Positions 1,221-32,209 of a DNA stretch of 64,000 nucleotides are shown here, in pieces; within the stretch, counting starts at the first letter, position 1; every line of letters begins with the position of its first letter. The notes under the pieces are model-generated. The model worked only from the letters and a program-made list of their open reading frames with translations, was not told the DNA's origin and did not search any database. Position numbers and translations under genes: made by a program. Source of the stretch: Maridesulfovibrio sp. (GTDB taxonomy: Bacteria > Desulfobacterota > Desulfovibrionia > Desulfovibrionales > Desulfovibrionaceae); NCBI RefSeq assembly GCF_963677005.1, contig NZ_OY781616.1, forward strand, positions 1,185,501-1,249,500, written 5' to 3'.

Positions 1221-1314
1221 GGAAGTGTATCGTCACCGGTGTGGCGCCTGGACTTCAAATCCAGTGGACGGGTTAACCCTCGTCGGTAGGTTCGACTCCT
1301 ATACACTTCCGCCA
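1221..1314 (+). tRNA. selC: tRNA-Sec (anticodon TCA)
   Basis: Selenocysteine tRNA. The 94-nt sequence has the long acceptor and extra arms typical of selC. It begins GGAAGTGTAT and ends with the complementary ATACACTTCC plus G and encoded CCA. The anticodon stem CTGGA/TCCAG carries loop CTTCAAA with anticodon TCA, which reads UGA. Much of the D-arm, anticodon arm and T-arm matches the well-known E. coli selC. It shows that the organism decodes UGA as selenocysteine; no selenoprotein gene is evident in the window. Confidence 0.96.
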
Positions 1315-20303: not shown

Positions 20304-20380
20304 GGTGGGTGTAGCTCAGTTGGTAGAGCACTTGGTTGTGGCCCAAGTGGCCGAGGGTTCAAGTCCCTTCACTCACCCCA
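20304..20380 (+). tRNA. tRNA-His (anticodon GTG), copy 1
   Basis: 77 nt with the extra 5' G(-1) opposite discriminator C73 that marks tRNA-His, anticodon loop TTGTGGC, and encoded CCA. The acceptor GTGGGTG pairs with CACTCAC with one G-T wobble. Confidence 0.97.
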
Positions 20381-20421: not shown

Positions 20422-20498
20422 GGTGGGTGTAGCTCAGTTGGTAGAGCACTTGGTTGTGGCCCAAGTGGCCGAGGGTTCAAGTCCCTTCACTCACCCCA
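20422..20498 (+). tRNA. tRNA-His (anticodon GTG), copy 2
   Basis: Base-for-base identical to the copy at 20304-20380, including the encoded CCA, which points to a recent tandem duplication or gene conversion. Confidence 0.97.
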
Positions 20499-20659: not shown

Positions 20660-21835
20660 CTACCCGCACAAAACCCGTACACGCAGCCGATAGTTTTCGA
20701 AATTTCTAAATCCGTATGCCCGCCTCTGGATAAGTTTCATCTTCCGATGAAATCCTTCGGTTGTTCCGTTGCTTTTACCGTAACGAAACATCCGGGCCAC
20801 TTCCTCTTTCCAGCTATTCAGAGTTCTGCCCAGCGTTCGAAGCGGAGCAAAAGGACTCTGCTGAAGTTGCTTGATTTTATCAAGCAGTTCGAAAATGTAT
20901 TTTTTGCAGCTACGGCCATTTTGTGCCCTAACTCTGAGCAGATCGTTCAGTTCATGGCAGAAGTGGTAAAGACTTTCGATTGCCGGTTGCGCCTCAAAAT
21001 ATTTAGATAAAAGCTCTTTCCTTTTGTCTGACAAACGGTCCTGCCGACACAGCATGGCCCGCAAAATTCCACCCCGACCATACGAAATATTTTCTTCATC
21101 GATCAGCTTGCAGGTCTTGCTGAAATGCTGGTTCACCAGCCGAATTACGTGAAAGCGATCCGAAACAATCCGGGCGTTCGGAAACCAGGTTTTGACCATA
21201 TGCCTATAAGCAGAATTCATATCTATACAAACTACTTTTACCTTACTCCGCCCTTTAAGAGTCCTGAGAAAGGGAAGTAATTCAGCGGCACTGCGGCCCA
21301 TGGCTATGTCAAAAATTTTATTGTTTGCAAGGTCGCAAAACGTGGTTGCAAACCCCACTTTGCGTGTGAAACGATGCTCATCAATTCCGAGATACCGAGG
21401 ACACTTCCAGTTGCTGCGCTGTCGGACTTTTAGATTGATGACCTGATGATAAAATCGCTCCACGCTGGAAACTCCGATTCCGTTTTCACTGGCAATGGTC
21501 TTGTTACATGATCCGTTGTTGTACTGCCGAAAAACTTCGCGCTTTAAAATTTCGGTAGAGCGGCTCCACTTCTTAATCCCGTCCATACGGGTGTTGAAAT
21601 ATCGACCACAATCCTTGCAGTGATACTTGTGGCACTTTACCCGCAAAATCGATGCGCGCCCGTTATGCGGAATGCTCTTGATAAATCGCCTGAACGTATC
21701 CTTGATCCGAAATGAAGAACTTCGGCACCGAGGACAAATTGGCTTGCCTGTCCACTCTACCTCAAGAATTATCGGAAAATACGACACCACATTTTTGATT
21801 GCAAAATCGGGCAGGCCGATTAAGATTCGATCCAT
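20660..21835 (-). CDS. ISL3-family transposase
   Basis: 391-residue DDE transposase. The N-terminal zinc-finger region has CPRC (about 35-38) and a second pair CKDC (about 73-76), followed by an HTH region near 110-130. The catalytic residues fit YLGIDEHRF (first Asp), VVCIDMNSAYR (second Asp) and SNGTTEGFHRKMK (Glu). ATG has AAAGGAG eight bases upstream. Its length is slightly short for the family but both ends look natural, so the enzyme is probably active. Confidence 0.94.
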   Translation of the reverse strand: MDRILIGLPDFAIKNVVSYFPIILEVEWTGKPICPRCRSSSFRIKDTFRRFIKSIPHNGRASILRVKCHKYHCKDCGRYFNTRMDGIKKWSRSTEILKREVFRQYNNGSCNKTIASENGIGVSSVERFYHQVINLKVRQRSNWKCPRYLGIDEHRFTRKVGFATTFCDLANNKIFDIAMGRSAAELLPFLRTLKGRSKVKVVCIDMNSAYRHMVKTWFPNARIVSDRFHVIRLVNQHFSKTCKLIDEENISYGRGGILRAMLCRQDRLSDKRKELLSKYFEAQPAIESLYHFCHELNDLLRVRAQNGRSCKKYIFELLDKIKQLQQSPFAPLRTLGRTLNSWKEEVARMFRYGKSNGTTEGFHRKMKLIQRRAYGFRNFENYRLRVRVLCG

Positions 21836-22057: not shown

Positions 22058-22141
22058 TGGTGCGAAAGGAGAGACTCGAACTCTCACGGCTATGCCGCTG
22101 GATCCTAAATCCAGTGCGTCTACCAATTCCGCCACTCTCGC
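22058..22141 (-). tRNA. tRNA-Leu (anticodon TAG)
   Basis: 84-nt class II tRNA with a variable arm. The acceptor GCGAGAG pairs with CTTTCGC, the anticodon stem CTGGA/TCCAG holds loop TTTAGGA (TAG, reading CUA), and CCA is encoded. Confidence 0.95.
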
Positions 22142-27816: not shown

Positions 27817-29247
27817 ATGAGTTCAGAATCTTTTGCCAATTTATGTATTTTTCACATAATGGACGGGCTGCGGGACGGGCTTTCACACTTTTCAGGAGCC
27901 AGCAGGGCGGCACTTGTTTATGCCGTCAATCCCGAGGACCCGTTACACATATACGATCCGCAGGACCTCCTCAGGGAACACGAGCCTAAGCTTCAGGAGT
28001 ACTACTTCGAATCAAACGAATGGCGGGCAGGTTCTGCCCATGATGACAGCACCCGTCTTATCGAAGTAATTCCGTCACGGGACCTGGCCCTGGCGGGGTT
28101 GATAACATGCAGTGCCCGGTCAAGCAGCATATTCTACCAGTGCTGGTTCACGGAACAGCACCCGGACATGTGTTCGACCGGCCCGACAGAAAGCTGGATG
28201 GAATATGCAGCCATGCTCCTCTCACAGGATTTTGCAACCCAGAACATACTGCGTATAGACAGTTCCGGACATCTGCTGCGGGAATATTCCACGCATGCGG
28301 TACGTGATTTCATAGTGGACCAGCGTAACCGGATCATGGGCTGGGACACCCAGTTGAGGGTCTACCCTATACTTGATGCTGTACTTGGAATTTCCAAAAC
28401 CCGCGAAGAAGGAGCCTGGGCCAAAGGAGACCTTATATTCATTGAACCCTCGGAACTGGATTCAATAAAATACATGGCCAAATTCCCCGAAAATGAGCGC
28501 CCTTCTCTCAAAAACCATAAACACGTGCGCAAACTTCTTCAGTCAGTGGAAAACTCAAGCCGCAAACTGGTATCGGACGGCAGATGTGTTGTCGGCATAG
28601 CTTCCATCGGGCCGACAAACAACTCCATCTCGGCATTTTTCAAAGGAGACTGGGGCCTGCTCTACCTTGGCGGAGACCCTGTATGCAGTTTTGCGGACGC
28701 CAAATTTTCCTCCACCAATTACAAGCCGAACCTTGTTCAGCTTGAAGAGTTCCTGCTTGAAATAGACCTGACGGCTGAAGCCCGCCATAAACTTTTTCAA
28801 CTGATCATCAGAATCATCGCCAGCGCCAACCACCGCAGACACGGCTGCACGCTGGTACTGGACTTTAATGACACCCCGGTGGAAATCGCCGGGCAGACCC
28901 TTGAAGAACCGCTTGATCTGAATCAACCCGAAATTCGTGGTCTGGCCAGGTCCCTCACCAAACTGGACGGCGCTGTGCATATATGCAAGGATCTCAAACT
29001 GCACGGCTTTGCCTGCCTGCTGGACGGCAAGGCGGTCACCGGCGAAAACAGAGCCAGAGGAGCAAGATTCAATTCAGCTCTGCGCTTTACCGCCAAGTAT
29101 GACAACCTCATCGTGATTGTTGTTTCTTCCGACAAACCGGTATCAATAATCCAGCACGGAGTGGAACTGACCGCACATTGCGAATGGAAACAGATGTTCT
29201 CCTGCGTCAGAACCCCGCCCCTTCTTGAAACCTGGCTGCAAGGATAG
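27817..29247 (+). CDS. divergent diadenylate-cyclase-like (DAC/DisA_N) protein with N-terminal sensor region
   Basis: 476 residues, no membrane helices. The last 150 residues align by eye with the DAC domain that makes c-di-AMP: HGCTLVLDF (like GAIISFE), LDGAVHICKDLKLHGFACLL (the DGA catalytic motif), GARFNSALRFTAKYDNLI (in place of GTRHRAAI) and VIVVSSDKPVSIIQHG. The catalytic Asp and the Arg of the second motif are kept, but the usual His is Phe. Residues 1-310 are not recognised and may be a sensor. Seven bases downstream starts an exported-protein gene, so the two probably form an operon. Activity is an inference. Confidence 0.72.
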   Translation: MSSESFANLCIFHIMDGLRDGLSHFSGASRAALVYAVNPEDPLHIYDPQDLLREHEPKLQEYYFESNEWRAGSAHDDSTRLIEVIPSRDLALAGLITCSARSSSIFYQCWFTEQHPDMCSTGPTESWMEYAAMLLSQDFATQNILRIDSSGHLLREYSTHAVRDFIVDQRNRIMGWDTQLRVYPILDAVLGISKTREEGAWAKGDLIFIEPSELDSIKYMAKFPENERPSLKNHKHVRKLLQSVENSSRKLVSDGRCVVGIASIGPTNNSISAFFKGDWGLLYLGGDPVCSFADAKFSSTNYKPNLVQLEEFLLEIDLTAEARHKLFQLIIRIIASANHRRHGCTLVLDFNDTPVEIAGQTLEEPLDLNQPEIRGLARSLTKLDGAVHICKDLKLHGFACLLDGKAVTGENRARGARFNSALRFTAKYDNLIVIVVSSDKPVSIIQHGVELTAHCEWKQMFSCVRTPPLLETWLQG

Positions 29248-29253
29248 ATAGAA

Positions 29254-29841
29254 ATGAAAAAGTTTTTTTACGTTATGATCTTATTGCTGGTCTGCTCATT
29301 GCCGATATCTGCCAGCGCATCAGACACTCAACAAGTGCTCGCAACTTATTCCTTCAATTCCAAAAAGGTTCCGGCGCAATGGTCAACCGGAAAGACCTTT
29401 GTCATAGGTGAAAACCGGACATTGGGACTTTTCAATGACCGCAACAAACGTTACCGGAAATCAACAGTTCTGACCATAGACGGGATACCGGAAGGCAGAG
29501 AGGTTGAAGTAAAATTCGACCTGATCTTCGTCGGCACCTGGGACAGCGGAGGCAAGCTGGCCGATCGTTTCACTATTTCTGAAGTTGATGGAAACCAGTT
29601 ACTGGAAATGACCGAATTCCCGTGCGCGCTCATTGATGGGGATGAATCACGCCCGCTGGACAACAACGGTTTCGTAAGGGTCGGAGAAAGGGAGCGGGCC
29701 TATTGGATACAGCCGCTGGCCATGAACATTCCCCTGTCCGGGATCAAGAACGGCAAGACGGCCATCGAGTTCAGGGGATATCTGACCGGTCGTAAAACGG
29801 AATTCTGGGCGCTGGATAACGTTAAAATAATTCTGCAGTAG
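29254..29841 (+). CDS. exported protein of unknown function, linked to the DAC-like gene
   Basis: 195 residues. A clear signal peptide (MKKFFYVMILLLVCSLPISASAS) leads a beta-rich mature domain with EVKFDLIFVGTWDSGG and a closing WALDNVKI strand. The pattern recalls jelly-roll/lectin-like folds that bind sugars, but no family is recognised. AAGGA lies nine bases before the ATG, at the end of the preceding gene. Location is periplasmic or secreted. The seven-base spacing to the DAC-like gene suggests co-expression. Confidence 0.75.
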   Translation: MKKFFYVMILLLVCSLPISASASDTQQVLATYSFNSKKVPAQWSTGKTFVIGENRTLGLFNDRNKRYRKSTVLTIDGIPEGREVEVKFDLIFVGTWDSGGKLADRFTISEVDGNQLLEMTEFPCALIDGDESRPLDNNGFVRVGERERAYWIQPLAMNIPLSGIKNGKTAIEFRGYLTGRKTEFWALDNVKIILQ

Positions 29842-29861: not shown

Positions 29862-29887
29862 AAAAAAGGCGCGGTTACCCGCGCCTT
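29862..29887 (-). terminator. terminator shared by panD and the exported-protein gene
   Basis: The stem AAGGCGCGG/CCGCGCCTT is followed by TTTTTCTTTTTG on the minus strand. It serves panD and could also stop the convergent transcript. Confidence 0.88.
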
Positions 29888-29902: not shown

Positions 29903-30253
29903 TCAAGCTTTTTTAACCTTGTTCCCGTCCCCCAGCAAAACGACCTTGGGCCTGTGCAGAGCCAGTTCGTCTTCATCCAGCCAGGTATAAGAACAGATAA
30001 TGATTTTTTGTCCGACCTCACCCTTGTGTGCGGCCGCACCGTTAAGACAAAACTCACCCGGACCGCCTTCAATGGCGTATGTGGTAAGCCTTTCACCGTT
30101 GTCGACGTTCAGAACATCGACTCGCTCGTAGGGAAGAATTCCCGCTTTTTCCAACAGATCAACATCGATGGAAATTGAGCCTTCATAATCAATATTTGCA
30201 TCGGTTATGGTGGCTCGATGAATTTTTGAATTCAAGAGGCAACGATTGCCCAT
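29903..30253 (-). CDS. panD: aspartate 1-decarboxylase proenzyme
   Basis: Makes beta-alanine for pantothenate/CoA by decarboxylating aspartate. 116 residues. The proenzyme self-cleaves between G25 and S26 (NIDYEGSISID) to form the pyruvoyl cofactor. NGAAAHKGEVGQKIII is the other hallmark. I start at ATG 30253 because AAGGAGG lies six bases upstream; an earlier frame adds seven residues without support. It is monocistronic, and panB/panC are not here. Confidence 0.97.
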   Translation of the reverse strand: MGNRCLLNSKIHRATITDANIDYEGSISIDVDLLEKAGILPYERVDVLNVDNGERLTTYAIEGGPGEFCLNGAAAHKGEVGQKIIICSYTWLDEDELALHRPKVVLLGDGNKVKKA

Positions 30254-30378
30254 ACTTTCCTCCTTCAGGAGCATTCCTGTTCTCCTGAAGCAATGCCGAT
30301 ATCATGCAATCTGCAAGTTAGCAATCATCTATAGGTTGATTATAAAATCAGGAATAAACCAGCCGCTGCGTCCATATA

Positions 30379-30426: not shown

Positions 30427-30939
30427 TTAAGCTCTGCGAAACTTGCGGCGAAACAACGCCACCAGCGACAATCCTCCGCCGAAGAGTAGAACAGCTCCGG
30501 GGATAGGAGTCGGAGTCCGGTCTATCTCACCAGACGTAAAAGTCCACTTCTTGTTCTTGTAGAAATTTGTCCCGGTCAAGGTTGTCTGCTCGCTGACCTC
30601 AGCCCAATCAACAGAGAAGTTGGTAAACTTGTCCGGCTTGGGGCTGTCAAACTGAATATGTGTATACAGAGTCTTGAAGTCCGCTTCAGGACCGCTGAAA
30701 ACAGCGCTTGTCTTGGTATCATCAGTATAACGCCAACTCCACCCGGAAGAGGACTGACCGCTATTAATCTTTACGTCCTTGATTGAAACACCGGGGTCGT
30801 TAACCCATATCTGCATGGCATAAACATTGGAATTTTCATTATACCAGCCATTGGCATTAATGGTAGAAGCAAACGCCGAAGCAGCGGTAAAAACCAGCAA
30901 TGCAATCAGCAGTGTAAATACACCTGAAAAGAACCTCAT
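30427..30939 (-). CDS. exported protein with VPLPA-CTERM-like sorting signal (paralogue 1)
   Basis: 170 residues. N-terminal signal peptide ending at AFAS, a beta-rich middle domain, then TPTPIPGAVLLFGGGLSL and the basic end RRKFRRA. That tail, with a Pro-rich motif, one hydrophobic helix and a basic cluster, is the architecture recognised by exosortase-type sorting (VPLPA-CTERM variant). It shares about 45% residues by eye with the gene at 31615-32115, including TLTGTNxYxNKxW. GGAGG precedes the ATG. It starts 15 bases after the MoaD-like gene. No exosortase is in the window. Confidence 0.8.
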   Translation of the reverse strand: MRFFSGVFTLLIALLVFTAASAFASTINANGWYNENSNVYAMQIWVNDPGVSIKDVKINSGQSSSGWSWRYTDDTKTSAVFSGPEADFKTLYTHIQFDSPKPDKFTNFSVDWAEVSEQTTLTGTNFYKNKKWTFTSGEIDRTPTPIPGAVLLFGGGLSLVALFRRKFRRA

Positions 30940-31614: not shown

Positions 31615-32115
31615 CTATGTCCTTAACTTTCTACGAATAACAGCAAGAAGAGAAATCCCTCCGCCAAACAGAATGACCGCCGCCGGAATGGGGGTCGGAG
31701 TATTGGAAATCTCCCCCTGAGTATAGGTCCACTCCTTATTGCTGTAATAATTTGTCCCCGTCAGGGTCGTATCTGTACTGACTTCAGCCCATTCCACACT
31801 GAAATCATAAAACGGATTGGGTGAATCAAATTTCAAAGACACAACCAGATCACCTGCAGAAGACGTTTCGGACCCGCTGAGGATTACACTGGTATGGGAG
31901 TCGTCAGCGTAAGTCCAGGACCAGCCGGATAAGGAATCCTTGCTGAAATCAACACTTGTTATGGAGATGGCTGAATCAGTTGTCCACAACTGGACGGTGT
32001 ACACTCCACTGCTCTCAGTTCCCCAGCCCTTGGCTGAAATGGTGGAAGCCTGTGCTCCCCCTGAAACAAATAAAATCAGCAAAACAAATATACAGGCAAG
32101 ATAACGCTTAAACAT
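31615..32115 (-). CDS. exported protein with VPLPA-CTERM-like sorting signal (paralogue 2)
   Basis: 166 residues. It is a paralogue of the 30427-30939 product with the same order: signal peptide (cleavage near GAQAS), a Trp-rich beta domain with SGWSWTYADDSHTSVILSG, TLTGTNYYSNKEW, and a C-terminal TPTPIPAAVILFGGGISL helix with the basic end RRKLRT. ATG 32115 follows GGAGGGGAGT; a frame starting 12 codons upstream is not supported. Expected to be processed and surface-bound or released by an exosortase-like enzyme. Function unknown. Confidence 0.8.
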   Translation of the reverse strand: MFKRYLACIFVLLILFVSGGAQASTISAKGWGTESSGVYTVQLWTTDSAISITSVDFSKDSLSGWSWTYADDSHTSVILSGSETSSAGDLVVSLKFDSPNPFYDFSVEWAEVSTDTTLTGTNYYSNKEWTYTQGEISNTPTPIPAAVILFGGGISLLAVIRRKLRT

Positions 32116-32209
32116 ACTCCCCTCCATTGCGTCATGAAATGTTATATACATACCAAAACGACATTGTCGGGAGCCAGATAAGAATAACTAAGTTGCCTAA
32201 AGAAGGTGC

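Follow-up and report, generated by a model that had tools for sequence, protein, structure and literature searches.

The gene at positions 27817 to 29247 of the window, by which we mean the whole 64,000-nucleotide stretch of Maridesulfovibrio sp. DNA analyzed here, probably encodes a stand-alone soluble sensor-cyclase of sulfate reducers, found beside the housekeeping diadenylate cyclase CdaA and accompanied by an accessory secreted protein. Judged by its domains, the product belongs to an already catalogued sensor-type family present in sulfate-reducing bacteria; a catalogue of architectures by Galperin (J Bacteriol, 2023) reportedly includes DACND-DACNH-DAC proteins. The cyclase gene and its domains are as follows.

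27817 to 29247, plus strand: DACND-DACNH-DAC protein, predicted diadenylate cyclase, 476 aa (ORF list, Pfam, AlphaFold2 model)
27829 to 28344, plus strand: DACND, probable sensor domain, residues 5–176 (Pfam PF21749, 265.2 bits, E 2.5e-79)
28363 to 28659, plus strand: DACNH, probable sensor domain, residues 183–281 (Pfam PF21750, 112.3 bits, E 1.3e-32)
28822 to 29160, plus strand: DAC catalytic domain, residues 336–448 (Pfam PF02457, 52.6 bits; predicted CdaA fold, Z 16.3)

The three domains occur in the family order within the 476-residue protein, and all score above the curated Pfam cut-off, which is 27 bits for each of them. All three are also present in 51/51 homologues scanned with Pfam, a count that includes the window protein; the scan took in 50 of the 80 relatives from named genomes. 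DACND and DACNH lie within the N-terminal 310 residues that a preliminary description of this DNA had left unrecognized and had taken for a novel sensor; both domains are already in Pfam, and their matches rule out a novel N-terminal domain. Thirty-six homologues from the same phylum are 45–86% identical to the window cyclase (tblastn). The NCBIfam model NF053872, which describes a DS-2 protein, gives a weak partial match to residues 185–445 (78.5 bits, where the cut-off is 630).

PADLOC returned no match for the 476-residue protein, Pfam found no HhH DNA-binding domain in it, and phage records contained no relative of it at E 0.01. Searches of PDB sequences were uninformative, both with the window protein (phmmer; phage gp5/lysozyme matches, at E 0.22 or worse) and with a profile of 17 homologues (plexin at E 0.1 and the CdaA-like entry 2fb5 at E 0.26). 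A literature search on DACND, DACNH, and DACNV returned no relevant paper, as judged by title.

The AlphaFold2 model of the cyclase, built on 51 sequences, has a mean pLDDT of 86.6. Residues 317–453 of this predicted structure superimpose on CdaA (8c4n) with a Z of 16.3 and an rmsd of 2.3 over 129 residues, and on DisA (3c1y) with a Z of 13.4; CdaA and DisA structures overall give Z 12.8–16.3. Together with the Pfam score, the model indicates that the 476-residue protein has a real diadenylate cyclase domain, as the preliminary description had proposed from alignment by eye; that proposal was to be abandoned if no DAC fold was predicted or if the DGA motif was not conserved, and we find the fold predicted and the motif conserved. 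The region assigned to DACND is less distinctive: residues 1–142 of the model give middling and mixed structural matches (Z 6.5–7.9), to chains that we take to be GAF-like, longin-like, and roadblock-like folds. These matches are within the range expected of common arrangements, and we therefore assign no fold to DACND. Because they are middling and mixed, the sensing role suggested here rests on the Pfam names and on the layout of the protein.

The domain order of the window cyclase is that of the DACND-DACNH-DAC proteins, which it matches over its full length and from which it differs in nothing essential; the window locus adds a downstream secreted gene, found in one genus only. The window cyclase shares the DAC fold and the DGA motif with CdaA, the housekeeping membrane diadenylate cyclase, but CdaA has the transmembrane CdaA_N, the GTRHRA motif, and a YbbR neighbor, while DACND-DACNH takes the place of CdaA_N in the window protein. 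It likewise shares the DAC fold with DisA; however, its DAC is C-terminal and no HhH was found, whereas DisA has a DNA-binding HhH domain.

A profile search detected DACND in 24/40 near genomes and in 17/17 of the genus, the genome of the window being included in both counts. Across a phylum sample of 198 genomes, which includes incomplete ones (158 are at least 90% complete), DACND occurs in 14, again counting our own, and 184 are without the protein; DACNH gives the same 14. A scan of named genomes yielded 487 candidates encoding a relative of the window cyclase, the best 80 of which are labelled as sulfate reducers, as other Deltaproteobacteria, or only as “Proteobacteria.” The cyclase is under strong purifying selection, with dN/dS of 0.001/0.156 and 0.013/0.431 in two close pairs, the only comparisons quoted because saturation affects most of the dS values computed against the window.

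Two DAC matches occur in each of the 17 genomes of the genus. In the genome of the window the second is a CdaA (Pfam CdaA_N and DAC) that adjoins a YbbR gene and lies 2.2 kb to the left of the window. Among the relatives, one genome (G034, 94% complete) has a DACND-type DAC only, and no DAC match was found in another (G019, 89% complete). Putative DHH-DHHA1 genes, candidates for hydrolases, are also present in our genome. The Rfam search of the window brought only tRNAs (five matches) to the gathering score, and thus no c-di-AMP riboswitch was seen there. These tRNAs include a selenocysteine tRNA (1221–1310, plus strand, 83.3 bits) and three (20305–20377, 20423–20495, and 22061–22141) near an ISL3-family transposase (20660–21835, minus strand; Pfam DDE_Tnp_ISL3, 210.7 bits), of which two have equal scores and the third is on the other strand.

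The catalytic domain of the window cyclase departs from the canonical pattern in one of its two signature motifs.

28966 to 28974, plus strand: DGA motif, D384-G385-A386 (sequence, homologue alignment)
29056 to 29073, plus strand: R-G-A-R-F-N, residues 414–419, the clade counterpart of canonical G-T-R-H-R (alignment, homologue counts, tree)

The CdaA of the same genome, used as reference, reads I-G-T-R-H-R-A (GTRHRA) at the second motif. Relative to it, the window cyclase keeps the Arg (R417), has Phe in place of His (F418), as the preliminary description had read it, and has Asn in place of the next Arg (N419), so that the canonical RHR is replaced by R-F-N at residues 417–419; DGA is intact. 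Residues D384, G385, A386, R417, N419, S437, and D439 are invariant among 17 diverse homologues. The pattern RGAR[FY]N occurs in 108/108 distinct window-type sequences (RGARFN in 72, RGARYN in 36), drawn from 116 loci of which 36 were found by the DACND profile, blind to this motif, and the other 80 partly by motif pattern, which biases the motif count for those 80. The same set shows DGA in 104/108 sequences, DGS in one, and the pattern unmatched in three, and VS-x-D-x-P in 104/108. All 30 CdaA-type loci read GTRHRA.

An alignment of 20 rows places the change across the clade: in DACs of DACNH-type proteins, compared with canonical ones, GTRHRA becomes RG[AS]R[FYL]N, the PLH residues before DGA are gone and a conserved [LM]DG is added, and VSEE becomes VS-x-D. 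In the corresponding tree (20 rows from 22 proteins), the 13 DACs of DACNH-type proteins are split from the seven canonical ones by a branch with support of 100/100, in a bootstrap that had not settled. Two of these rows, from Citrobacter and Phycisphaera, are proteins with DACNG and DACNH in which the DAC part is assigned by alignment only, as neither has a Pfam DAC match at E 0.01. Seven plasmid-borne DACNG-DACNH or DACNH relatives read RGSRYN, RGARYN, or RGARFN, with one RGARLN; this last is in the DACNG-DACNH protein of a Phycisphaera plasmid (L222, 3492–5318), where, alone among the 13 DACNH-type rows, the position has neither Phe nor Tyr. Because the 108 homologues share the motif and the clade branch is fully supported, the alignments make the R[FY]N replacement an old, fixed feature of the DACNH clade, and a sporadic loss of the His is ruled out.

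How such a site would work bears on three readings of the enzyme. The preferred one, an active cyclase, has to accommodate the fact that two of the three RHR residues differ here. In a DisA-type enzyme, changing RHR to AAA abolishes ATP binding and activity (PMC3328451). The window DAC, having lost the His and the second Arg of RHR, could accordingly be catalytically dead and act as a nucleotide-binding receptor or scaffold. We regard this as improbable, since the replacement motif is fixed throughout the homologues rather than decaying, including the loci that were picked blind to it. In addition, mutation of two predicted catalytic residues of the DS-2 DAC removed defence (PMC13092281), and the Citrobacter homologue of that DAC reads RGSRYN; an enzyme of this clade thus needs its active site. 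The term c-di-AMP is absent from the main text of PMC13092281.

The DAC might instead be active and, with its phosphate-binding motif rebuilt, make something other than standard 3',5'-c-di-AMP, such as a dinucleotide with another base or linkage, or a linear one. In favor of this are the joint changes across the clade, the full support of its branch, and the canonical CdaA already encoded in the genome, with which another enzyme making the same compound would overlap in part. DACNH-type DACs nevertheless retain the first Arg, a nearby acid, and DGA, which reads DGT in two of the plasmid relatives. Moreover, RHR is also altered in two plasmid DACs that the motif filter kept out of the tree (RHL in both, NGA in one), so that an altered motif is not by itself proof of a different product; a non-standard product is possible, if on balance unlikely. 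The likeliest reading is that the window cyclase has an active but altered catalytic site.

The second gene of the locus lies directly behind the cyclase.

29254 to 29841, plus strand: secreted protein of 195 residues, beta jelly-roll according to a weak predicted model, companion found in this genus only (ORF list, profile searches, model)
29866 to 29887, plus strand: terminator-like hairpin after the second gene (hairpin scan; 4 found in the region against 3.2 expected, near chance)

Both reading frames were confirmed on the plus strand, and the ATG of the second gene begins at the seventh base after the cyclase stop, a gap of six bases, in agreement with the preliminary description. Also as described there, the N-terminus resembles a signal peptide by reading and the protein is predicted to be beta-rich, in a weak model (mean pLDDT 64). 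No Pfam family was found for it, and a PDB search with its family gave nothing at E 1. Structural matches of the weak model are to a MAM domain (Z 10.0), BcsB (9.5), and CBM27 (8.3), a generic jelly-roll likeness that makes sugar binding possible. The gene is under purifying selection, with dN/dS of 0.025/0.245 and 0.040/0.443 in two close pairs.

Next to the second gene, an aspartate decarboxylase gene is located at 29903–30274, and two similar secreted proteins are encoded on the minus strand (30427–30939 and 31615–32151), each with a PTPIP(G/A)A-hydrophobic-RRK tail that presumably resembles PEP-CTERM-type sorting signals. These three genes occupy the place that, in the other loci of the genus, is taken by genes that are presumably acetolactate-synthase-like.

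The pair had been put forward as a possible signaling or defence-type module, and its arrangement invites this: the genes share a strand, the gap offers no space for a terminator between them, and wherever the exported gene is found within the genus it is directly downstream of the cyclase (11/11). The exported gene is present in 11/17 genus genomes (10/16 relatives plus our own), and the two genes are probably co-transcribed in this one genus. It was not found in the other 6/17, all of which retain the cyclase, nor in any of 20 cyclase loci outside the genus. Its profile matched our own genome alone in the phylum sample (none of the other 197), and its 11 matches across 119 fetched loci, one of them a duplicate, are all from this genus. 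On the cyclase tree its presence or absence changes six times, at least four of these changes being forced by well-supported branches, and the label clusters no more than shuffled labels do. This pattern fits a gene repeatedly lost, or gained and lost, while the cyclase stayed. The best reading is that the exported partner is an optional accessory gene, dispensable for the core role of the cyclase.

Neighborhoods elsewhere vary. A radical-SAM gene (Pfam Radical_SAM_N), presumably YgiQ-like, is upstream of the cyclase in 16/16 genus relatives. Among 88 resolved loci outside the genus (10 of 117 loci, with an unresolved ORF, were left out of the clustering), one broad neighbor cluster appears in 28, at scattered positions, and no other in more than seven; the window member of that cluster is a PAS histidine kinase. 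The neighbor survey covered 92 distinct of 98 loci, with ORFs of at least 90 aa taken from the earliest start, and gave 176 neighbors. Within 60 bp, a gene in the same orientation follows the cyclase in only 6/89 loci and precedes it in 13/87, so the cyclase is not always a lone transcript. With varied neighbors and the partner absent from the 20 outside loci and the other 197 phylum genomes, a gene pair conserved beyond the genus is ruled out; the cyclase has no constant partner across lineages. Random pairing of the neighbors was among the outcomes that the preliminary description had named as refuting its proposal, and on this point the two-gene module fails.

Ninety-eight of the 176 neighbor proteins were scanned with Pfam and PADLOC, and the top-ranked families, from the first 25 listed per scan, are two-component and metabolic. 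PADLOC matched 61 families, none with more than two members among the best 25 of the 61. The matches listed include three RtcR-type models, each with two members that may be the pair of sigma-54 activators seen by Pfam, and SspA, also with two; single matches listed are to the helicase models ZorD, DpdE, DrmD, and Brx, as well as to a DUF1848 model that is RT-associated. A SMODS-family CD-NTase is absent from our genome and present in 3/40 genomes. No CBASS phospholipase or CD-NTase was seen beside the cyclase, the ORFs of window positions 1–34000 having been read and two upstream genes scanned. Lacking both a SMODS CD-NTase in the genome and a recurrent PADLOC neighbor, the window gene has no defence neighborhood and shows no link to defence.

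Relatives on plasmids differ in this respect. DACNG-DACNH-DAC genes on Citrobacter and Gluconobacter plasmids adjoin patatin and nucleotidyltransferase genes, and one Priestia DACNH-DAC gene is near a nucleotidyltransferase; stretches from Dyadobacter, Phycisphaera, and two other Priestia have no annotated patatin/nucleotidyltransferase pair. On a Priestia megaterium plasmid (L224, 2796–4310), the neighbors of a DACNH-DAC gene include genes for a cytosine methyltransferase, a restriction enzyme of the NgoFVII family, and very-short-patch repair; no nucleotidyltransferase is annotated there. The third gene of DS-2 (NF053872; DACNG-DACNH-DAC, CBASS-linked, anti-phage) resembles the window cyclase in having DACNH and a DAC of the same clade. 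However, its first domain is DACNG rather than DACND, the window protein scoring well below the model's cut-off, and the DS-2-type gene is plasmid-borne, whereas the window cyclase is chromosomal, genus-wide, and without nearby CBASS genes. The suggestion of defence has a remote footing in that this DAC clade includes DS-2 and CBASS-linked cyclases, but it finds no support in the surroundings of the window gene itself. The two plasmid genes that adjoin patatin and nucleotidyltransferase genes notwithstanding, a two-gene module of cyclase and exported protein, serving against envelope stress or phage, is very improbable, given the genomes that keep the cyclase alone, the scarcity of close downstream genes elsewhere, and the lack of recurrent defence families.

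In the mechanism that we propose for the sensor-cyclase, for which we infer solubility, oligomeric state, sensing, catalysis, and product, DACND and DACNH would sense a cytosolic signal and control the C-terminal DAC. From two molecules of ATP the DAC would form a cyclic dinucleotide, with c-di-AMP as the most likely product, by means of an active site that appears to be the clade version, with DGA kept, RHR changed to R[FY]N, and VSEE to VS-x-D. The window cyclase may thereby supplement, in a conditional manner, the pool that CdaA supplies.

These results assign the gene to a family already catalogued and dispose of the proposals that its sensor is novel and that the pair is a new module. A broader and rather doubtful hypothesis is that all DACNH-linked DACs, the sulfate-reducer sensors and the CBASS-linked enzymes alike, share the rebuilt site and make a signal other than standard c-di-AMP; if so, a cell could run a DACNH-linked signal beside CdaA without cross-talk. 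What remains of value is a clade-wide, testable change in a catalytic motif that is common to an anti-phage cyclase, and the environmental chromosomal enzymes could serve as a convenient model for the chemistry of the clade.
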